A DNA stretch of 64,000 nucleotides from Sphingobacteriales bacterium (GTDB lineage: Bacteria; Bacteroidota; Bacteroidia; UKL13-3): NCBI GenBank assembly GCA_021299635.1, contig JAJTFA010000002.1, forward strand, positions 1 through 64,000, read 5' to 3'. The notes beneath the pieces are model-generated. The model saw only the letters and a program-made list of their open reading frames with translations. It had not been told where the DNA came from and ran no database searches. The position numbers and the translations under genes were made by a program. This document shows, in pieces, positions 5,029-55,109 of this stretch (positions are counted from its first letter, which is position 1; each line of letters opens with the position of its first letter).

Positions 5029-5892
5029 ATGAGACAGCTTAAAATATCAAAACAATTTACCAACCGCGAAAGCAAATCGCTGGATAAATACTTGAACGAG
5101 ATTTCCAAAGTTCCAATGATTGATGCACAGGAAGAAGTGGAATTGGCGCGCAGGATACGCGAAGGCGATCAGGTAGCTTTGGAGCGCTTGGTAAATGCCA
5201 ATCTGCGTTTCGTGGTTTCGGTATCAAAACAATATCAGAATCAAGGTTTAACACTGGGCGATTTAATTAACGAAGGCAATTTGGGCCTTATAAAAGCAGC
5301 AAAAAGATTTGATGAAACCCGTGGTTTTAAATTCATTTCTTATGCCGTTTGGTGGATTCGTCAATCCATTCTTCAGGCATTGGCCGATCAAAGCCGTATA
5401 GTGCGTTTGCCTTTAAACAAAGTAGGTTCTATTGGTCGTATTGGTAGTGTAGCTGCTAAGTTAGAACAACGCTTAGAGCGTGAGCCAACGGTAGAAGAGA
5501 TTGCTGTTGAAATGGATTTACCTTTGCAGGAAGTGGAAAACGCCCTGCGTTCAACCGGTCGTCATTTGTCTATTGATGCACCATTAACTGATGGAGAAGA
5601 CAATACCTTATTGGGTATTTTGGATAGCAACGATGAGCCGCGTCCTGATGTGCAACTGATTAATGAATCATTACAAAAAGAAATTAACCGCGTTATTTCT
5701 ACCCTTTCAGAAAAAGAGAGAGATGTATTGAAATACTATTATGGTTTAGATGGTGGCCCGGCTCATACTTTAGAGGATATCAGTGAGAAAATTGGCTTAA
5801 CACGCGAGCGTGTACGTCAAATAAAAGAAAAGGCACTGAGAAGGTTGCGTAAATCATCAAAAAGTAAAATATTAAAAGCGTATTTGGGTTAA
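5029..5892 (+). CDS. rpoD: RNA polymerase primary sigma factor, RpoD/SigA family
   Basis: A 287-aa sigma-70 protein of the short Bacteroidota primary type, which lacks region 1.1. Region 1.2 reads [20 protein letters not shown]. Region 2, with core binding and -10 recognition, contains [19 protein letters not shown] and [19 protein letters not shown]. Region 3 follows, then region 4 with the helix-turn-helix [20 protein letters not shown]. Its C-terminus is [11 protein letters not shown]. This is the housekeeping sigma factor expected to read the TAnnTTTG promoters seen throughout the window. It is monocistronic: a promoter element lies upstream and a strong hairpin follows 22 bp after the stop. 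Motifs are complete. Confidence 0.96.
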
Positions 5893-5914
5893 TACATCCT
5901 GCGCAAATGGTTGA

Positions 5915-5948
5915 AACATCTGTCGATTGTCTTCGGCAGATGTTTTTT
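5915..5948 (+). terminator. Rho-independent terminator after rpoD
   Basis: aacatctg at 5915-5922 pairs with cagatgtt at 5937-5944. The stem extends inward to ~12 bp and a 6-nt loop containing TTG. A run of T follows at 5943-5948. It overlaps the promoter of the next operon. Confidence 0.85.
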
Positions 5949-5955
5949 ATTTTTG
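5927..5955 (+). promoter_or_regulatory. Promoter of the rhomboid operon, embedded in the rpoD terminator
   Basis: TATTTTTG at 5948-5955 matches the -7 element TAnnTTTG exactly. TTG at 5927-5929 lies 18 bp upstream, fitting the -33 element. The predicted start is near 5962, with the ATG at 5986. This is the best two-box promoter match I found in the window. Confidence 0.6.
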
Positions 5956-5985
5956 AAACATACAGGTCGCATAAAATAATAGCAC

Positions 5986-6819
5986 ATGAGTAATCACAGA
6001 TTGTCTGATTTTTCTATTTTACCTGCGGTGGTCAAAAACTTGCTCATCATAAACGGCCTCTGCTTTTTGGCTTATGTGGTTTTGGCCGATAGGGGCATTA
6101 TCAACCTCAATGAAACCTTGGGCCTGTATTATCCAGAATCTAAATTTTTTAAACCCTATCAGCTCATCAGCCATGTGTTTATGCATGGTTCATTCATGCA
6201 TTTGTTCTTCAACATGTTTTCCTTGTGGATGTTTGGCAATGTGCTGGAAAACTATTGGGGGCCAAAACGTTTTTTCATTTATTATTTTGTTACTGCATTC
6301 GGTTCAGCAGCCTTGCATATTGGTGTAAATGCATTTGAGGTAATGCAAATAAAGCAGGCCATTGCCGGATATATTTCTTCTCCCGGATATGATTCGTTTT
6401 TAGCGCTTCAGGAAAAAATTGATCCAACATTGATTGATAATGACTATTTTCAATCGTTTATGCGTGAGTGGCAAACGCAGAAACAGAATCCTCAACTTAT
6501 ACAAGGCTCAATAGAATTAACCGATGCCATGGTACAGCGCAAGATTAATGTGCCTACGGTTGGGGCTTCGGGGGCTGTTTTTGGACTATTGCTTGCCTTT
6601 GGCATGCTATTTCCCAACACCCAATTAATGATGTTGTTTTTCCCTTTTCCCATTAAAGCCAAATATTTTGTAATGATTTATGGTGCATTGGAGTTATATC
6701 AGGGAGTAGCCAATAACCCTACAGATCATGTAGCTCACTTTGCACATTTGGGTGGAATGTTATTTGGTTTTATATTGATTAAAATATGGAATAAAACCAA
6801 TAGGCATACGTTTTATTAG
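5986..6819 (+). CDS. Rhomboid family intramembrane serine protease
   Basis: A 277-aa inner-membrane protein with about six hydrophobic segments. HVFMHGSFMHLFFNMFSLWM (~63) is the conserved HxxxxHxxxN rhomboid helix. The nucleophile motif GASGAVFG (~198) supplies the serine, and HVAHFAHLGGMLFG (~245) supplies the catalytic histidine. Both residues of the Ser-His dyad are therefore present and the enzyme should be active. An unusually long polar insertion of ~60 residues (about 118-175) separates the N-terminal helices from the serine helix. It is first in an operon with a second rhomboid 8 bp downstream. Substrates are unknown. Confidence 0.92.
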   Translation: MSNHRLSDFSILPAVVKNLLIINGLCFLAYVVLADRGIINLNETLGLYYPESKFFKPYQLISHVFMHGSFMHLFFNMFSLWMFGNVLENYWGPKRFFIYYFVTAFGSAALHIGVNAFEVMQIKQAIAGYISSPGYDSFLALQEKIDPTLIDNDYFQSFMREWQTQKQNPQLIQGSIELTDAMVQRKINVPTVGASGAVFGLLLAFGMLFPNTQLMMLFFPFPIKAKYFVMIYGALELYQGVANNPTDHVAHFAHLGGMLFGFILIKIWNKTNRHTFY

Positions 6820-6827
6820 CGGTTAAC

Positions 6828-7688
6828 ATGAATTTAATTAATGAAATAAAATACACATTCAGTAATAATGATCATGCCATTAAGCGCATCATCATCATTA
6901 ATGTGGCGGTATTTCTAACCTTTGCCATCTTTCATGTATTTGCCTTTTTATTCAGGCTAGATGCAATGGCTGTTCATCATTTTAAAACGCATTTAATGCT
7001 GCCTGCTTCCTTTACTACTTTTATTAGCCAACCATGGAGCCTGTTAACCTGCATGTTTTTACATGATGGCTTTTTTCATATCCTGTTTAATATGTTGTGG
7101 CTGTTTTGGATTGGTAGCTTGTTGCATGAGTACTTAGGAAACCGCAAGGTATACGAAGCCTATTTTGCCGGAGGTGTTTTTGGCGGTCTGGTTTTTATGT
7201 TGTGTTATCAATTGTTGCCGGTTTTTCAAAACCAACTTAGTACCACTTATGCTTTGGGAGCCTCTGCAGGAGTATTGAGCGTAGTTGTTGCTGCAGCAAC
7301 TTTATTGCCCAATTATCCTTTTCAATTATTATTTTTTGGTACGGTTCGGCTTAAATACATTGCTTTAATAAGTGTGTTACTCGATTTTATTAGTATACCT
7401 TCAGGCAATGCAGGTGGACATATTGCGCATATTGGCGGTGCTTTGTTTGGATATTTATACATCAAATACATTTATAAGTATGGAACACTGCTGCCCGATA
7501 AATGGTGGAGCATTTTCAGGGGTAAGTCAAAAGTAAAGATTCACTACCAGCAAACACAGTCTAAAACATGGAAGGCAAAGCCTTCACAAGATGAGATTGA
7601 TCGTATTCTGGATAAAATTTCTAAATCCGGATATGACAGCCTTACCAAAAATGAAAAGGATATGTTATTTAAAGCCAGTAAAGAATAA
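6828..7688 (+). CDS. Rhomboid family protease with C-terminal DUF6576-like tail
   Basis: A 286-aa membrane protein paralogous to the upstream rhomboid. It has MFLHDGFFHILFNMLWLFWI (the HxxxxHxxxN helix), LGASAGVLSVVVAAATLLP with the GxSxG serine (~148), and GGHIAHIGGALFGYL with the catalytic His (~205). Unlike its partner it carries a basic cytoplasmic extension after ~230 ending in KPSQDEIDRILDKISKSGYD then LTKNEKDMLFKASKE, a short helical domain typical of Bacteroidota rhomboids. Its TAA stop overlaps the next gene's ATG by 1 bp. Tandem pairing suggests division of labour or a heteromeric assembly (inference). Confidence 0.9.
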   Translation: MNLINEIKYTFSNNDHAIKRIIIINVAVFLTFAIFHVFAFLFRLDAMAVHHFKTHLMLPASFTTFISQPWSLLTCMFLHDGFFHILFNMLWLFWIGSLLHEYLGNRKVYEAYFAGGVFGGLVFMLCYQLLPVFQNQLSTTYALGASAGVLSVVVAAATLLPNYPFQLLFFGTVRLKYIALISVLLDFISIPSGNAGGHIAHIGGALFGYLYIKYIYKYGTLLPDKWWSIFRGKSKVKIHYQQTQSKTWKAKPSQDEIDRILDKISKSGYDSLTKNEKDMLFKASKE

Positions 7689-8767
7689 TGTTTATTGTTC
7701 ATCGCATTGTATTTGCCTTTAATGGGATTGCATTATTGCTGCTGCTATTATCTTATGCAGCACCTTATATCAGCCCGGCTGTGTTTTGGCCGATTGCATT
7801 TTTAGGATTGGCCTACCCGGTATTGCTTATTATCAATATTCTTTTCAGTATTTACTGGATTTTATTTTTTAAGGTTAAGTTTTTAATGTCTCTAATGGTT
7901 ATTGCCATGGGTTATTCATACATCCCTAAATATGTTCAACTCAATGCCAAAAAGCTTAGTGAAAAAGATGGTGCCCTGGAAGTAGTTAGTTTTAATATGA
8001 AATATTTTGGCGCATATGAAGGAAAGAAACCGGAAGATGCAGATCACTTTTTTGAAGTATTGGATAAGGTGGCTCCGGATATTTTGTGTTTGCAGGAATG
8101 TGAGAATTTTAACACAAAAGCCGAAGGAGCTGCATTTAAAAAATTATATAAGAAAATAGGGGCTTTTTATACGTATAATCTTAGTCAGAAAGATGGTTAT
8201 AAAAGCGCAGACGGACTTATGATTGCAACCAGGTTCCCAATCATTGATTCCGGCATAGTAGAGCGCGATGAACACAGCGATAACTATACCATATTTGTAG
8301 ATATAAAGGTGGGCGAGCAAACGTATCGCATCATTAATACCCATTTGCAATCAATCAGGTTTGAAGAAAAGGAATACAAGGCTGTAAAGGAATTTGATTT
8401 CGAAAATGATACTGTGGTATCCGGTTATAAGAGTATTACGTACAAACTAAAAACAGCATTTTTAAAAAGAGCCAAACAAGCAGAAACTATTCAGCTGTTT
8501 ATTGAGCGATCGCCATATCCGGTTATTGTTTGCGGAGATTTTAACGACTCCCCTACCTCCTACGCGTATCATCATGTAAGGGGAAATTTAAAAGATGCAT
8601 TTATAGAAGCAGCCAGTGGCTTGGGTAGAACATATACCGGAAATGCTCCTTCTTTGAGAATAGATTATATTTTATTTGACGCTTCGCTAGATGCTTTTAA
8701 TTATTATGCAAAGCCTTTTGAATTTAGCGACCACAAGATGGTAACCTGCACTTTAAAATCAAAATAG
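7688..8767 (+). CDS. Membrane-anchored endonuclease/exonuclease/phosphatase family protein
   Basis: A 359-aa protein. Residues 1-~85 contain three hydrophobic helices; from ~95 on lies an EEP (exonuclease III-like) domain. Its motifs are EVVSFNMKYFG, LCLQECE (metal-binding Glu), INTHLQS, VIVCGDFNDSPTSYAY (catalytic Asp/Asn), RIDYILFD and the final FSDHKMV (catalytic His). All catalytic residues are visible. The membrane anchor argues for a phosphodiesterase or phosphatase on a lipid or nucleotide rather than DNA repair. It is the third gene of the rhomboid operon and ends 11 bp from the convergent ClC gene. Substrate unknown. Confidence 0.85.
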   Translation: MFIVHRIVFAFNGIALLLLLLSYAAPYISPAVFWPIAFLGLAYPVLLIINILFSIYWILFFKVKFLMSLMVIAMGYSYIPKYVQLNAKKLSEKDGALEVVSFNMKYFGAYEGKKPEDADHFFEVLDKVAPDILCLQECENFNTKAEGAAFKKLYKKIGAFYTYNLSQKDGYKSADGLMIATRFPIIDSGIVERDEHSDNYTIFVDIKVGEQTYRIINTHLQSIRFEEKEYKAVKEFDFENDTVVSGYKSITYKLKTAFLKRAKQAETIQLFIERSPYPVIVCGDFNDSPTSYAYHHVRGNLKDAFIEAASGLGRTYTGNAPSLRIDYILFDASLDAFNYYAKPFEFSDHKMVTCTLKSK

Positions 8768-8778
8768 CCAAACAGTTT

Positions 8779-10566
8779 TTATACTTCTGTTTTACTCATC
8801 AACTGCTCACGGTACTTGCTTAGCAGGCTCGACTTGGAAATAAACCCTACATAACGATTCTCATGCAAAATGGGAATATTCCATATTTGATGGTCTTCAA
8901 ACTTTTTTATTAGCTGTAATACTGTTTCCTGCTGATAAGCTATTGCAGGTGGTGCGTTCATCAAGTCCTTCACTCTAACCTTGTCATACTTGTCACGCTC
9001 AAACATAATGCTTCGGATATCATCAAGCATAATGATACCCTCTAATTCTTCATCTGCAGAAACTACAGGAAAAATATTCCGCTTGGATGAGGCAACTATC
9101 TGAACCAGCTCACTAAGGGTTTGATTGGGTCTTAGCTTGGAAAAATCGTTTTCAATAAGTGCACTCAAGTTCATTTGATTAAGCAACTCCTCATCCTTGT
9201 CTTTAATGAGAAGCCCTTTATCCGCAAGTACTTTATAGTAAATAGAGTTGGGCTCAAAATAGCGGGTAGTAAAATATGATATAGAAGATACTAGCATAAG
9301 CGGCACAAACAAGACATAACCGCCTGTAATTTCAGCAATTAAAAAGATGCCTGTGAGAGGGGCATGCAATACACCGCTAACGAGTCCGCACATGGCAACT
9401 GCAATAAAGTTAGCCTCATTCAATGTAACAATATTCAGGCTATTCATAAAATGGACGAAAACAAAACCCAGTGTAGCGCCTGTAAATAATGAGGGTCCAA
9501 AAATCCCTCCGTTACCCCCTGCACCAATGGTTATGGCAGAGGCAACAACTTTTATGAGTGCAACAGCCAAAGCAAACAACAAAATAAAAGTGTCGTTGCT
9601 TTGCTGTTTATAAAACAAGCTTCGCTCCAACAAAGATTCATAATTACCGGCCATCAATTCGTTTATCACCCCATATCCCTCTCCATAAAGTGGCGGAAAA
9701 ATAAAAAGAAATAATCCCAGCCCAATTGCGCCTAGAATAGCTTTATGCCAACTATTTTTTCTGCGATGAAAAAAGTTCTCAATCTTAACAGCTGCACGAA
9801 TCATGTATGCTGAAGTAAGACCACAAACACCTCCTAGTAGCAAATAAAAGGGCACTGCATTTAATGCCCAACTATTGGTGGTAAGGAAAAAAAGTTGCTG
9901 CTCACCAAACAATTTAGAAACCAACGCACCGCAGGCTGATGCGATTAGAATTGGGACGAATGCAGGGATGGACAATTCACTCAGTAAAACCTCAAAAGAA
10001 AAAATAACGCCTGCGATTGGGCTGTTAAATACTGCTGCAATGCCGGCAGCTGCGCCACCGGCCAATAATAACGTGCGGTCTTGCCGACTCATCCATAAAT
10101 TTTTTGCAGTGTTTGATCCGAGCGCAGAACCTGTAACAGCAATAGGAGCTTCTAGTCCTGCTGAACCACCAAAACCTATTGTTAGCGCACTGGTAATTAA
10201 ATGTGAATACGTTTTGTGTAGTTCTACACGAGAAGCTTTGTGTGTAATGGCATAGATAATACTGCTCAGTCCTTTATCAAAATTAAGTTTGTAATGAAAC
10301 AAACGCAGGTAGAGCATGGTAAGCAAAATGCCTACTAGCGGATACATCAGATAAAGGTAGTTTTCATATTTAATATCAAAACCACTTTGACAAACCCACT
10401 GAAAAAAATGAACAAGATATTTAAGCAATACTGCTGCCAATCCCGATAAAATACCGGTTATGCCGCTTGCAACCAGTAAAAAGTTTTTGTCGCTGATGTA
10501 TTTTCCCCGTTGCTTAATAAATTCATGAAATAGGATATTAGCTCTTATGCGGAGTATTTTAAACAT
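8779..10566 (-). CDS. ClC-family chloride channel/transporter with C-terminal CBS pair
   Basis: A 595-aa inner-membrane protein. The voltage-gated chloride channel (ClC) core occupies residues ~20-430. It shows the gating-glutamate loop GGSAGLEAPIAVTGSALGS (~133), equivalent to GREGP, and GAGGNGGIFGPSLFTGATLG (~345), equivalent to GIFAP. Residues ~460-590 form two CBS domains (LSELVQIVASSKRNIFPVVS, then YQQETVLQLIKKFEDHQIWN) that usually bind adenine nucleotides and regulate transport. Family length is normal for the CBS-bearing subgroup. It is the last gene of the long minus-strand run, 6 bp after gldH. Whether it is a channel or an H+/Cl- antiporter cannot be told from this reading. Confidence 0.92.
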   Translation of the reverse strand: MFKILRIRANILFHEFIKQRGKYISDKNFLLVASGITGILSGLAAVLLKYLVHFFQWVCQSGFDIKYENYLYLMYPLVGILLTMLYLRLFHYKLNFDKGLSSIIYAITHKASRVELHKTYSHLITSALTIGFGGSAGLEAPIAVTGSALGSNTAKNLWMSRQDRTLLLAGGAAAGIAAVFNSPIAGVIFSFEVLLSELSIPAFVPILIASACGALVSKLFGEQQLFFLTTNSWALNAVPFYLLLGGVCGLTSAYMIRAAVKIENFFHRRKNSWHKAILGAIGLGLFLFIFPPLYGEGYGVINELMAGNYESLLERSLFYKQQSNDTFILLFALAVALIKVVASAITIGAGGNGGIFGPSLFTGATLGFVFVHFMNSLNIVTLNEANFIAVAMCGLVSGVLHAPLTGIFLIAEITGGYVLFVPLMLVSSISYFTTRYFEPNSIYYKVLADKGLLIKDKDEELLNQMNLSALIENDFSKLRPNQTLSELVQIVASSKRNIFPVVSADEELEGIIMLDDIRSIMFERDKYDKVRVKDLMNAPPAIAYQQETVLQLIKKFEDHQIWNIPILHENRYVGFISKSSLLSKYREQLMSKTEV

Positions 10567-51534: not shown

Positions 51535-51633
51535 GCCTTTACCAAAATTGCGCAAGGCAAGGCAATCCAATGGGTTGCTTACACAATAATATTTCCTTAT
51601 TTGTTTTTTTCAGTACTGCTCATACTTTTGCGG

Positions 51634-51716
51634 CTGTCTTTAGGGGTGGCTGTAACAAGTCTGAGATAATACCCTTGGAACCTGATCGGGATAATGCCTG
51701 CGAAGGGATAAGACGG
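51634..51716 (+). ncRNA. TPP (thiamin pyrophosphate) riboswitch aptamer
   Basis: All hallmark elements of the THI box are present. P1 is ctgtctt (51634-51640) paired with aagacgg (51710-51716), 7 bp with one wobble. After ggggtg come ctgagataatacccttg at 51661 (pyrimidine-sensor helix), then gaacctgatcgggataatgc (51678-51697), then cgaaggga closing the core. Ligand binding should repress the downstream TonB receptor gene by transcription termination: a hairpin with a T run lies at 51782-51813. Confidence 0.95.
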
Positions 51717-51781
51717 AAAGCATAGCTTTTCGGTGCGTACATCAAACCGTGTATTCACATCCAAGTGGTAAACAAATATCT

Positions 51782-51832: not shown

Positions 51833-54046
51833 ATGTTACGTTTTTCTTTGTTAGTATGTATGGGCTACCTGCTTATGATGACCGGCTATGCTCAACCTGT
51901 TGCCGATACCTTAATCAACAAAACCATTCAGGAAGTTGTGCTGGTTGGTATTAGAGCCGGAAAAAATATACCGGTTACCTATACCAATATTACAGCTGCA
52001 CAATTAAAGCAAATTTACTATGGGGCCGATTTGCCTACCGTATTGCAAAATACGCCCGCCATACATGCATATAGTGATAATGGCACCGGTGTAGGCTACA
52101 GTTATTTCAGGCTACGGGGCATGGACCAAAGCCGCATTAACCTTACCGTTAACGGAGTGCCTGTGAACGACCCCGAAAATCAGGGAACCTTTTTTAACAA
52201 CTTTGCTGATTTGGCCAGCAGTGCTCATTCCATTCAAATTCAGCGGGGCGTGGGCACATCTACCAACGGTACGGCAGCTTTCGGAGGCAGTATTAATATT
52301 TTAACCCGTACCTTAAGCGATAAAGCCGGTGGAGAAATAAACCTGGGATATGGGTCATTTAATACACGCAGAATAACAGCCGAGGCACAGAGCGGAAGAC
52401 TAAATAATAAATACGCCATGTATGTGCGTCTATCCAATCTGGCAACTGATGGTTTCCGAGAGCGCTCGGGTAGTGAAATTACATCTTATATGTTTAGCGC
52501 TGCGCGTTTTGGCACCAAGTCGGTTCTTAAAATAAATGCATGGGGTGGTGATGCACAATCGCAACTCGCCTACATCGGAGCGGATGAAGCAACCTTAAAA
52601 ACCAACCGAAGAGCCAACCCACTTGCGCAAGGCGAGCGTGATCGCTTTCAACAGCATTTTTTCCAGTTGCAATATCAGCGCAGTTTCTCATCCAATTCAG
52701 GAATCAATGCCTCGGCCTATTATGTGAGAGGCAGTGCTCCACAATTTCAGGTGTATTTTCCGGCATCATCGTTTTTCCCCTACTCGTTTTACAATATGCC
52801 TGAGCCCATTGTTGGTGCAGATACCATACGCGAAACCAATGCAATGGTGTCTTACCGGCTTGACCAACAATTTTATGGCGGTTTTGCCAACTACTACTAT
52901 CATGTCGAAAAACTGAAAGTAGATGCAGGAATTCATGTAAACAGTTTTACTGCAGATCATTTTATGGAGGCGCAGCGTATGGATGCATTTCCGACAGGTT
53001 TTTCAGAAGGCCATCGTGTATATTTTAATACCGGTTATAAGCAAGAGGCTTCTGCATTTGTAAAAGCAAATTATAACCTTACGGCCCGTGCATCAGTTTT
53101 CGGAGATGTGCAGGTGCGTTCGGCCTTTTTCCGTTATAGCGCACAAACCATGCAATACGCGGCACCACCTTTTACTTCTGAAAATATGCAGTGGACCTTT
53201 ATAAATCCGAAAGTGGGTGGTAAATTCAGTGTGAATGAATGCGCAGACATCTATGCAATGGCTGGAATATCCGGACGTGAACCCACCCGATTTGATTATT
53301 TTCAGGATGATTATGCCACACGTAACGTAAAGCAGGATGACATAAAACCGGAGTATGTAACCGATATTGAAACAGGTGTGCGCATGAATACGCGTTCACT
53401 GCAACTGAATGCGAATGTTTACTACATGGATTTTACCAATGCCATTATCAATACCGGTCAGGTTAATGCTTTTGGTTATCCGATAACCACAAACGTTGCG
53501 GCCAGCACGCGCAGCGGATTGGAGCTAGATGTGACATGGAAAATAAATAAGTATATTTCGTTAACTCATGCTGGCAGCTATAGTCATAACAGCATACAGA
53601 AGATTACACAATTTTATACAGACAGTACGTTTAGCAGTATCGGTTTTGCTTATAAACAAACCTCGCCTGCACTTACACCTGCAGTCATTGTGAACCAAGG
53701 CATACGAGTTAACCCATTTGACTGGTTATATACCGAAATCAATGCACGGTATGTATCACAACAGTTTGTAGACAACAGCTCAACAAAAACGGCAGCAGTT
53801 GCGGAATACACGGTTACAGATTTGCGCCTGGGATTACAGCTTAAACAATGGCTAAAGCAACAAGTAGCGCTTACGTTTCATGTCAACAACCTCTTCAATC
53901 AATCTTACAATGCGTGGGGTAATGCAGGCATGTTCAGCAATGTAGTGGACTACCGCCCGGACGGAACCACAGCCGGCACAATTACTCCTGTATTTTTTGT
54001 GGCACCACCACGTAATTTCTTTATTACCCTAAGCTGGAAATTATAA
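51833..54046 (+). CDS. TonB-dependent outer-membrane receptor, probably for thiamin
   Basis: A 737-aa receptor with signal peptide LVCMGYLLMMTGYAQ. It has a plug (LPTVLQNTPAIHAYSDNGTG, then RINLTVNGVPVNDPENQGTF and IQIQRGVGTSTNGTAAFGGS) and a 22-strand barrel ending in NFFITLSWKL with terminal aromatic strand. No CarboxypepD-like N-terminal domain is present, unlike the receptor at 45441. It lies behind a complete TPP riboswitch and terminator. TPP-controlled TonB receptors in Bacteroidota are implicated in thiamin or precursor uptake (established family knowledge); the ligand here is inferred from that. No inner-membrane transporter or thi gene follows it. Confidence 0.88.
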   Translation: MLRFSLLVCMGYLLMMTGYAQPVADTLINKTIQEVVLVGIRAGKNIPVTYTNITAAQLKQIYYGADLPTVLQNTPAIHAYSDNGTGVGYSYFRLRGMDQSRINLTVNGVPVNDPENQGTFFNNFADLASSAHSIQIQRGVGTSTNGTAAFGGSINILTRTLSDKAGGEINLGYGSFNTRRITAEAQSGRLNNKYAMYVRLSNLATDGFRERSGSEITSYMFSAARFGTKSVLKINAWGGDAQSQLAYIGADEATLKTNRRANPLAQGERDRFQQHFFQLQYQRSFSSNSGINASAYYVRGSAPQFQVYFPASSFFPYSFYNMPEPIVGADTIRETNAMVSYRLDQQFYGGFANYYYHVEKLKVDAGIHVNSFTADHFMEAQRMDAFPTGFSEGHRVYFNTGYKQEASAFVKANYNLTARASVFGDVQVRSAFFRYSAQTMQYAAPPFTSENMQWTFINPKVGGKFSVNECADIYAMAGISGREPTRFDYFQDDYATRNVKQDDIKPEYVTDIETGVRMNTRSLQLNANVYYMDFTNAIINTGQVNAFGYPITTNVAASTRSGLELDVTWKINKYISLTHAGSYSHNSIQKITQFYTDSTFSSIGFAYKQTSPALTPAVIVNQGIRVNPFDWLYTEINARYVSQQFVDNSSTKTAAVAEYTVTDLRLGLQLKQWLKQQVALTFHVNNLFNQSYNAWGNAGMFSNVVDYRPDGTTAGTITPVFFVAPPRNFFITLSWKL

Positions 54047-54160
54047 TTACGCATAAAAAATAAGGCATATTTGCATAGCCGAATAGGCGCATGTACATTT
54101 GCAATAACAGCCTGTCGGGGGGTAGACGAAAGTTGGGTAGGGAAGTTCTAATTTTAAATT

Positions 54161-54244
54161 GCGCGGGTGGCGAAATTGGTAGACGCGCTGGTCTCAGAAG
54201 CCAGTGGGGTAACACCTGTAGGAGTTCGACTCTCCTCTCGCGCA
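54161..54244 (+). tRNA. tRNA-Leu (anticodon CAG)
   Basis: An 84-nt cloverleaf. Acceptor stem gcgcggg pairs with ctcgcgc (54237-54243) with discriminator A. The anticodon stem ctggt/gccag encloses loop ctcagaa with anticodon CAG (54194-54196), reading CUG. A long variable arm (tggggtaacacct) marks a class II tRNA. The T arm is aggag-ttcgact-ctcct. CCA is not encoded. Confidence 0.97.
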
Positions 54245-54248
54245 CGCA

Positions 54249-54299
54249 GTAAGCGAGAGAAACCTGTGCGGAAACGTACAGGTTTTTTTGTGCAACAAA
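54249..54299 (+). repeat. 51-bp post-tRNA repeat, copy 1
   Basis: This 51-bp block begins gtaagcgagagaaacctgtg. It recurs 197 bp downstream with a single mismatch (gcggaaacg here, gcggcaacg there). It contains a terminator hairpin closed by a GNRA tetraloop. It starts 4 bp after the tRNA-Leu gene. Confidence 0.9.
54261..54290 (+). terminator. tRNA-Leu terminator (in repeat copy 1)
   Basis: aacctgtgcg pairs with cgtacaggtt (10 bp, one wobble) across a gaaa tetraloop, followed by seven T. Confidence 0.9.
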
Positions 54300-54365
54300 A
54301 AAAGAGTAGAAGTTTACCCCGATGCTGAAGATGTGCGAGGAACGAGCAACAGCTCCGCAATCGGG

Positions 54366-54379
54366 GACTCTCCTCTCGC
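54366..54379 (+). repeat. Partial duplicate of the tRNA-Leu 3' end
   Basis: gactctcctctcgc at 54366-54379 is identical to 54228-54241, the T-arm and acceptor 3' strand of tRNA-Leu. It is followed by cacg, again like the sequence after the tRNA. No cloverleaf precedes it. It is framed by an inverted repeat ccccgat (54317-54323) and atcgggg (54360-54366). Confidence 0.75.
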
Positions 54380-54445
54380 ACGGCCGAGCGTAAAGAAATG
54401 ACCCCGATGGGTTATTTTAGCGAGGAGCGAGACTGCAGGGGGAGC

Positions 54446-54496
54446 GTAAGCGAGAGAAACCTGTGCGGCAACGTACAGGTTTTTTTGTGCAACAAA
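54446..54496 (+). repeat. 51-bp post-tRNA repeat, copy 2
   Basis: Second copy of the block at 54249-54299, 50 of 51 bases identical, offset 197 bp. It again carries the GNRA-capped terminator. Confidence 0.9.
54458..54487 (+). terminator. Second terminator (in repeat copy 2)
   Basis: Same 10-bp stem as the tRNA terminator, with loop gcaa, followed by a seven-T run. It would stop transcription that reads through the first terminator. Confidence 0.85.
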
Positions 54497-54502
54497 TGGC
54501 GT

Positions 54503-54542
54503 AGAAAAAATAAACAGGCCACCTCTTTCGAGATGGCCTGTT
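54503..54542 (-). terminator. Terminator of the bamA-skp operon
   Basis: On the minus strand aacaggcca pairs with tggcctgtt (9 bp, 54513-54521 with 54534-54542) around a 12-nt loop. It is followed by tattttttc, ~20 bp after the stop of the last skp gene. It may be weakly bidirectional. Confidence 0.85.
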
Positions 54543-54560
54543 AAAACATTTATCCATTCC

Positions 54561-55109
54561 TTATTTGCCCGGGGCAGGAGAAGGCTCAGGAGTAGTTGTA
54601 ATATTTAATTTCTTTTTTACTGCAGCCATCAAATTATCACCCTCTGGTTTATAAAGAATAGGTGTGCCGGGGCTGCTATCAAAAACGTAAGCAATGCCCT
54701 GTGCCTTTGCTACCTCTGTTATGGCTGTTTTTGCTTTATCAACAATAGGCTTTAGCAAATCCTGTTCTTTCTTGCGAACATTTTCTTGCGCTGTTTCCTG
54801 AAACTCTTGCAAACGGGCTTGAATATCTCTCAGTTCTTTTTGCTTATACTCTTTAATGGCATCATTCATCTTGGCTTCGCCCTTTTGGTATTCATCATAC
54901 TTCTTCTCCAGTTCTGAGCTCATTTTTTTCATTTCTTCCTGTAGCTGTTTTCCAAAAGCTTCCATTTCACCGGTTGCTTTTTTATACTCAGGCATCTGGG
55001 TCATCAAATCCTGAAACTCAATATAGCCGAATTTTTGTGCATGTACCTTACCTGGTGTAATTGCTACTGCCAGTAGCAATACAAATGCAATTGTTGTGAT
55101 TCTTTTCAT
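54561..55109 (-). CDS. Skp/OmpH family periplasmic chaperone (second copy)
   Basis: A 182-aa exported protein (signal peptide FVLLLAVAITPGKVHAQ). The mature part starts FGYIEFQDLMTQMPEYKKAT. A long charged coiled coil (~45-120, LQEEMKKMSSELEKKYDEYQ) follows, then the conserved VYVFDSS-like AQGIAYVFDSSPGTPILY end of Skp proteins. The trimeric 'tentacles' hold unfolded outer-membrane proteins. It ends with a Pro-rich tail. It is 14 bp downstream of a paralogous Skp gene and last in the operon after bamA. Confidence 0.9.
   Translation of the reverse strand: MKRITTIAFVLLLAVAITPGKVHAQKFGYIEFQDLMTQMPEYKKATGEMEAFGKQLQEEMKKMSSELEKKYDEYQKGEAKMNDAIKEYKQKELRDIQARLQEFQETAQENVRKKEQDLLKPIVDKAKTAITEVAKAQGIAYVFDSSPGTPILYKPEGDNLMAAVKKKLNITTTPEPSPAPGK

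Follow-up and report, generated by a model that had tools for sequence, protein, structure and literature searches.

Why do pieces of a tRNA gene and of its terminator recur, interleaved with palindromes, directly behind tRNA-Leu(CAG) in the Sphingobacteriales contig JAJTFA010000002.1? The window analysed here comprises 64,000 nucleotides (positions 1–64,000 of this contig), and a first, sequence-only reading of it offered three possible origins for the interval 54161–54542: a tandem duplication that includes the tRNA tail, a decayed integration site, or a small structured RNA made from the tRNA transcript.

ARAGORN finds a single tRNA gene in the window, tRNA-Leu(CAG), which is intact (54161–54245, + strand; Rfam RF00005) and is the source of the copies that follow it. 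Its trailer and terminator (54246–54299, +; hairpin 54261–54286 with a GAAA loop, then a T run) hold a 51-nt block (54249–54299) that recurs as a second trailer and terminator copy at 54446–54496 (+). The two blocks are 98% identical; their one mismatch, noticed at the outset, changes the GAAA loop to GCAA, both of the GNRA type. Equally borne out were the 14-nt copy of the tRNA 3′ end between the blocks and the inverted repeats around it: GACTCTCCTCTCGC, located within tRNA-Leu at 54228–54241, is found again at 54366–54379 (+) as a displaced copy of the 3′ half of the tRNA, while CCCCGAT (54317–54323) pairs with ATCGGGG (54360–54366) and occurs once more at 54402–54408. Aligning the spacer to the tRNA accounts for this layout: GTAGAAGTTT A CCCCGAT...ATCGGG GACTCTCCTCTCGC lines up with GTAGGAGTTC GACTCTCCTCTCGC of the gene. 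According to this alignment, the spacer reproduces the T-arm of the tRNA, with a CCCCGAT...ATCGGGG hairpin inserted in, and splitting, the T-loop. The 5′ half of the T-arm copy (GTAGAAGTTT for GTAGGAGTTC in the tRNA; 54306–54315, +) is degenerate; the insert, hereafter element A, spans 54317–54366 (+), and a relative of it was found behind tRNA-Asn in another member of the family. A further hairpin element of 62 nt, core B, precedes block 2 (54380–54441, +; stem 54396–54404/54409–54417, loop CGAT), and an 8-bp direct repeat, GAGCGTAA (54386–54393 and 54442–54449, +), could be due to chance or be a target duplication. The tail is thus duplicated, as the tandem-duplication proposal had it, but a simple tandem duplication is ruled out, because a hairpin interrupts the T-loop of the copy and another hairpin element precedes terminator 2.

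On the upstream side of tRNA-Leu, a TPP riboswitch (51632–51725) lies above a gene that, from its frame, is TonB-dependent-receptor-like (51833–54046). Between block 2 and the OmpH-like gene, the inverted repeat AACAGGCCACCTC/GAGATGGCCTGTT (54513–54542) is probably the terminator of the latter.

A genome search for further copies of the block, using a 326-base query (54220–54545), gave no second place at E ≤ 0.001 in the 2.31-Mb assembly, which is 94.5% complete; the block is therefore not a stock tRNA terminator, and this candidate was rejected. A scattered REP-like repeat in the window's genome was rejected as well, GCGAGGANCGAG occurring only twice, both times at the window locus. A viral link was sought with two exact patterns, which gave 0 matches among viral contigs. 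As for the folding of the repeat region, the stretch 54161–54500, which includes the tRNA and both terminators, folds better as a whole than 100 of 100 shuffles (z −5.3), whereas the two inserts taken alone are unexceptional, 54310–54380 being matched by 50 of 200 shuffles and 54366–54460 (+ strand) by 15 of 200.

To see how other tRNA genes compare, direct copies of the last 30 tRNA nucleotides were sought within 700 bp downstream in the window's genome, a same-genus genome and genome G028 (99 tRNAs by Rfam, 100 loci by ARAGORN). A copy of at least 12 nt exists at 15 of the 100 loci, as against at most 9 nt at the other 85, which places the tail copy beyond chance. In the window's genome the tRNAs concerned are Leu-CAG, Ala, His, Glu, Phe and Asp. 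As read by eye (like further split positions described below), the break in the Phe, Asp and His copies falls within the T-loop, at GGTTC or GGTTCGA: tRNA-Phe is followed by four tandem copies of the form TGTCGGGGGTTC / ccccgagcactcgggg / CTCCCACACCAC, the Asp copy reads GGTTC / ccccgagtactcgggg / CGTCCGC and the His copy GGTTCGA / tcccgat...atcggga / CCATATT. In the Ala copy the insert immediately precedes TTCGA. Three split copies are present at tRNA-Phe of the same-genus genome, so that unit numbers vary between the two genomes, and two at its tRNA-His before the contig ends. The hairpin differs from locus to locus both in sequence and in position, being placed in the T-loop, in the D-loop, before the T-arm or in the anticodon region. 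Behind tRNA-Leu(GAG) of the same-genus genome (locus L169), two near-whole tRNA-Leu copies carry tcccgatgaataatcggga or a one-base variant of it in the D-loop; the counterpart in the window's genome is a decayed copy. Since contigs of several relatives end inside split-tRNA arrays (C1 and C2 of G001, C51 and C41 of G028, C46 of G013), short-read assemblies probably under-count them.

Core B has a distribution of its own. Its model gave 31 hits (E up to 0.1) in 17 of 64 genomes of the family, which are the same 64 that the order-level search covered. A tRNA is present at 22 of 30 hit loci, some of them overlapping: 21 times it is tRNA-Glu and once the tRNA-Leu of the window. Among the eight loci that lack a tRNA, three are contig-edge copies with Glu tail sequence (L031, L064, L091); three of the other five share a single contig of G054, G025 contributes one, and the copy in G055 lies next to the remnant of a Glu-like tail. 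All three copies in the window's genome lie behind tRNAs, tRNA-Glu being followed by two units of about 178 bp, and in G028 one contig carries four units after tRNA-Glu and a second contig has two at its edge. The stem covaries, both sides having changed at 6 of 18 predicted pairs in a 14-copy alignment. In contig C183 of G054 (L092), core B lies within larger repeats (about 540–797, 2740–2990 and 5786–5960) that have inverted ends like CACGCGCATTTCCGAATGCGTGTG and sit between protein genes, away from tRNAs; this repeat looks like a non-autonomous palindromic element.

At tRNA-Asp and tRNA-Ala of the window's genome, a small GIY-YIG frame (PF01541) is found between the tRNA and its displaced copy. 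The dN/dS of these two nuclease genes relative to the same-genus genome is 0.148 (Asp) and 0.160 (Ala), values that, as sequence-based estimates, show purifying selection on both. Both genomes have a third GIY-YIG frame behind tRNA-Leu(CAA), close to where the contig ends; in the window's genome the contig end cuts it. The domain search of the window's contig with PF01541 gave no GIY-YIG match and, the gene being present at Asp and Ala of the same genome, we call the unit of the window nuclease-less. The Pfam name for the nuclease clade denotes the domain only, and NCBIfam provides no name above cut-off. By sequence, the nearest solved structures are those of UPF0213 (E 4e-14) and of SLX1 (E 2.5e-8), a structure-specific nuclease, a kinship that would suit an enzyme meeting hairpins. 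UPF0213-like proteins are nevertheless different, as they group apart, and none of the nine from the same bacterial family has a same-strand tRNA upstream in its locus. Phage and plasmid relatives of the nuclease are at most 45.5% identical among the matches listed, and no tRNA is annotated within 1.5 kb of the two inspected, although the plasmid table lists no RNA genes at all.

A profile built from 11 tRNA-linked proteins places this nuclease subfamily in 171 of 295 genomes of the class (E up to 1e-10). We analysed 70 of the class loci, namely the best 30 matches and 40 hand-picked among the matches listed, down to near E 1e-20; since the choice favoured strong matches, was made in part for tandem arrays, drew on a few genomes twice and included members of the query profile (L262, L263, L265), the 70 loci are not a random sample. 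In this non-random sample, a same-strand tRNA lies 2–184 bp upstream of the nuclease at 53 of 70 loci, and a displaced 3′ copy of at least 10 nt follows at 38 of these 53, being absent at 15. Nine of the remaining 17 loci have the mirror plan, in which an 11–30-nt piece of the tRNA 5′ end is followed by the nuclease frame and then by the intact tRNA; by eye, seven of the nine pieces stop at a hairpin within or close to the D-loop. The last eight loci conform to neither plan. Hairpins with an arm of at least 7 stand at 30 of 37 junctions compared with 236 of 1000 random windows from the same loci (L296 was excluded from the count, its match being a run of N). Ends of the CCCG..CGGG or TCCG..CGGA type, a pattern defined after the hairpins had been seen, occur at 25 of 37 junctions and in 95 of 2000 random windows.

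The window locus may also retain a trace of the mirror plan. Upstream of tRNA-Leu, a hairpin right arm, cctgtcggggg, is followed by GGTAGACG (54111–54128, +), a copy of the D-arm piece at 54178–54185; by this likeness, 54111–54128 looks like the remnant of a mirror arrangement. Comparing the locus with relatives, as the sequence-only reading had suggested, revealed a fuller 5′ form in the same-genus genome, two contigs of which end within the tRNA-Leu locus: TCCCGACTTGTCGGGA stands directly before GGTAGACG in two places, which are separated by a copy of the tRNA start, GCGCGGGTGGCGAAATT. Synteny traced through the OmpH-like gene (13 loci) was informative only for the same-genus contig, the six loci scanned (L011–L016) being without a tRNA. 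On that contig (L011, positions 5547–10129, CANGVA010000002.1), 4.6 kb separate block 2 from a third half terminator next to the OmpH-like gene; this stretch contains frames of 570 and 477 amino acids and two small ones and, beyond the repeat, had no match in the window's genome.

In a tree of the nucleases, from which six rows (three fragments and three duplicates or contig-edge copies) and one of the nine UPF0213-like proteins (L224) were excluded, 27 tRNA-linked proteins separate from 8 UPF0213-like ones at 100/99 support. Eight rows that lack an upstream tRNA group among the tRNA-linked proteins, and the tree leaves most inner forks unresolved. The tRNA isotype changes 13 times on this tree, whereas 300 shuffles required 18.5 changes on average and never fewer than 15; related nucleases therefore tend to share a tRNA, with switches, as would be expected of a site-specific but mobile nuclease.

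Tandem arrays on both sides of one tRNA were found in the complete relative G062 (one contig of 3,236,529 bases). Behind its tRNA-Asn, eight tandem units of about 410 bp each consist of tail, terminator, nuclease frame, T-arm 5′ half and a palindrome, which is CCCCGATAGCTATCGGGG in all but the outermost unit, and before the same tRNA there are 11 units of 80 bp in which TCCCGATAGCTATCGGGA replaces the AGCT of the D-loop. Counted from the tRNA outward, the downstream units differ from their consensus at 2, 2, 2, 0, 1, 0, 7 and 20 positions, and the upstream units at 0 positions eight times, then at 7, 5 and 7. Near-identical inner units and diverged outer ones fit growth beside the tRNA, and also decay at the array ends. 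In a genome of another family, tRNA-Met is arranged in this way too: its two split junctions are separated by 403 bp, and a palindrome interrupts the nuclease frames.

Three known systems invite comparison. At tyrT/tyrV of E. coli K-12, units with a period of 178 bp read AAGGTTCGACTC / hairpin-rich insert / AATCCTTCCCCCACCACCA, the last part being the final 19 nt of the tRNA, and are annotated as a small RNA, RttR (RtT, RF00391, in Rfam), which is thought to arise as a structured RNA from the read-through tRNA transcript. Tandem units behind a tRNA, a tRNA 3′-end copy and a T-arm split by a hairpin are thus common to both cases, but the sequences differ, one tRNA is concerned there and many here, and no GIY-YIG gene is seen in the E. 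coli units. The RtT model matched four times in E. coli, in none of seven relative loci at the gathering score, and nowhere in 54000–54600 of the window at E up to 1. In T-even phages, the free-standing homing endonuclease SegB, a GIY-YIG enzyme, has cleavage sites inside tRNA genes, RAWTSGAAC being the motif favoured in vitro (23 of 83 sites), and a tRNA locus is amplified in tandem only if SegB is present with its catalytic residues (PMC13096335). It therefore provides, in the available text of that report, the example of a GIY-YIG enzyme beside tRNA genes that cuts them and drives their tandem amplification; unlike the genes described here it belongs to a phage, its description as available contains no split tRNA copy or hairpin junction, and the likeness drawn here is one of enzyme type and setting. 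Reversed, the reported SegB motif resembles the T-loop GTTCRANTC, although it fits only part of the tRNAs concerned here (Asp: GTTCGAGTC). Finally, integrative elements that target tRNA genes by means of tyrosine recombinases likewise keep the gene whole and leave a fragment copy; here, in contrast, the unit leaves no room for an integrase, is far smaller, exists in 5′ and 3′ types and has a hairpin at the junction.

The window locus, where a displaced tRNA fragment split by a hairpin stands beside the intact tRNA, is built like the tRNA-linked GIY-YIG elements, and in our judgement the interval is probably a nuclease-less member of a Bacteroidia family of tRNA-splitting GIY-YIG elements. The sequences show the common anatomy, i.e. 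an intact tRNA next to a displaced fragment of its own that is cut by a hairpin at or near a loop, plus a terminator copy; they also show the linkage to tRNAs and the tandem arrays, as well as fuller members that have the GIY-YIG gene between tRNA and fragment, can form tandem units and include a mirror type 5′ of the tRNA. Our inferences concern cutting and movement, and the part that the hairpin plays. The nuclease would cut the tRNA gene in or near a loop, and repair at short repeats would insert or duplicate the unit, regenerating an intact tRNA next to the cut while the old tRNA half is pushed outward with the hairpin kept at the junction; arrays would result from many rounds of this process. 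The unit of the window may have been moved in trans or may have lost its own gene, and possible sources in trans are the nuclease genes that this genome keeps at tRNA-Asp and tRNA-Ala and, cut by the contig end, at tRNA-Leu(CAA). Several observations count against the splitting model: the displaced copy is lacking at 15 of 53 loci and either plan at 8 of 70, the hairpin varies by locus in sequence and site, core B is free of tRNAs in some genomes, the divergence of outer units fits ordinary decay equally, and the unit of the window has no GIY-YIG frame, a degenerate T-arm half and inserts that fold ordinarily. The model also leaves the survival of the intact tRNA beside a cutting nuclease unaccounted for.

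The same units could be read as ordinary tandem duplications of tRNA 3′ ends, made by slippage or unequal crossing-over, whose useless copies dispersed palindromes later entered, the nuclease genes being passengers. Palindromes of the CCCGAT..ATCGGG type do exist away from tRNAs: a phylum-wide pattern search for the T-loop palindrome matched in 64 of 395 genomes, mostly chance or dispersed palindromes, and among 30 fetched loci 25 were without a tRNA, many of them chance matches, the five with one including a locus of the window's own genome. Moreover, one such palindrome lies within a nuclease frame, and the number of Phe units differs between close relatives (4 and 3). We nonetheless consider this account unlikely, since the hairpins recur at the loops of different tRNAs, the nuclease clade that accompanies the units is linked to tRNAs in its own right, and mirror-image 5′ units argue against 3′-end duplication of the ordinary kind.

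Two other explanations deserve mention. If the interval were a small RNA locus, in which the read-through tRNA transcript gives a structured RNA whose hairpins are kept by selection, the covariation of the core B stem, the terminators kept in both blocks and the E. coli tyrT repeats, which combine the same split with an annotated small RNA, would all speak in its favor. Yet the strand of core B, which is that of the tRNA at Leu and the opposite one at Glu, makes one conserved RNA unlikely, and Rfam returned nothing above cut-off besides the tRNA in 54000–54600 (two other-strand matches at 54507–54600 were far below it), so we hold this explanation to be improbable. We give very little credence to the scar of an integrase-driven genomic island, even though tRNA 3′ ends are common attB sites and, in the same-genus genome, block 2 and the third half terminator are 4.6 kb apart with other genes in that space: the units, of 80–410 bp, are too small for an integrase, the small frame of the longer ones is the GIY-YIG nuclease, a hairpin-split copy does not resemble an att duplication, and copies occur on the 5′ side of tRNAs as well. 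The decayed integration site of the sequence-only reading was nevertheless near the mark, inasmuch as relatives have fuller tRNA units with a GIY-YIG gene; it is the integrase that does not fit.

Beyond the window, the tRNA-splitting elements may amount to a categorically new class of selfish element, a proposal that we take seriously while stopping short of calling it probable: a GIY-YIG nuclease would cut tRNA genes in a loop and, 5′ or 3′ of the gene, would spread by restoring a whole tRNA next to the displaced half with its hairpin cap; the unit of the window would be a derivative that lacks the nuclease, and the E. coli tyrT repeats an orphan product of the same process. In the open full-text literature on GIY-YIG enzymes and tRNA genes, tRNA tandem repeats, tyrT and palindromes, a scope that leaves subscription journals and bioRxiv mostly outside, this arrangement is absent, by title and opening of the abstract, among the matches listed, SegB being the nearest. 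As tRNA genes must stay intact, splitting a copy while leaving a whole one would be a neat solution for a parasite of essential genes. If true, the proposal would explain the tandem arrays, tRNA fragments and contig breaks beside Bacteroidia tRNA genes, and would give a role to a widespread clade of small nucleases and an origin to the tyrT repeats of E. coli.
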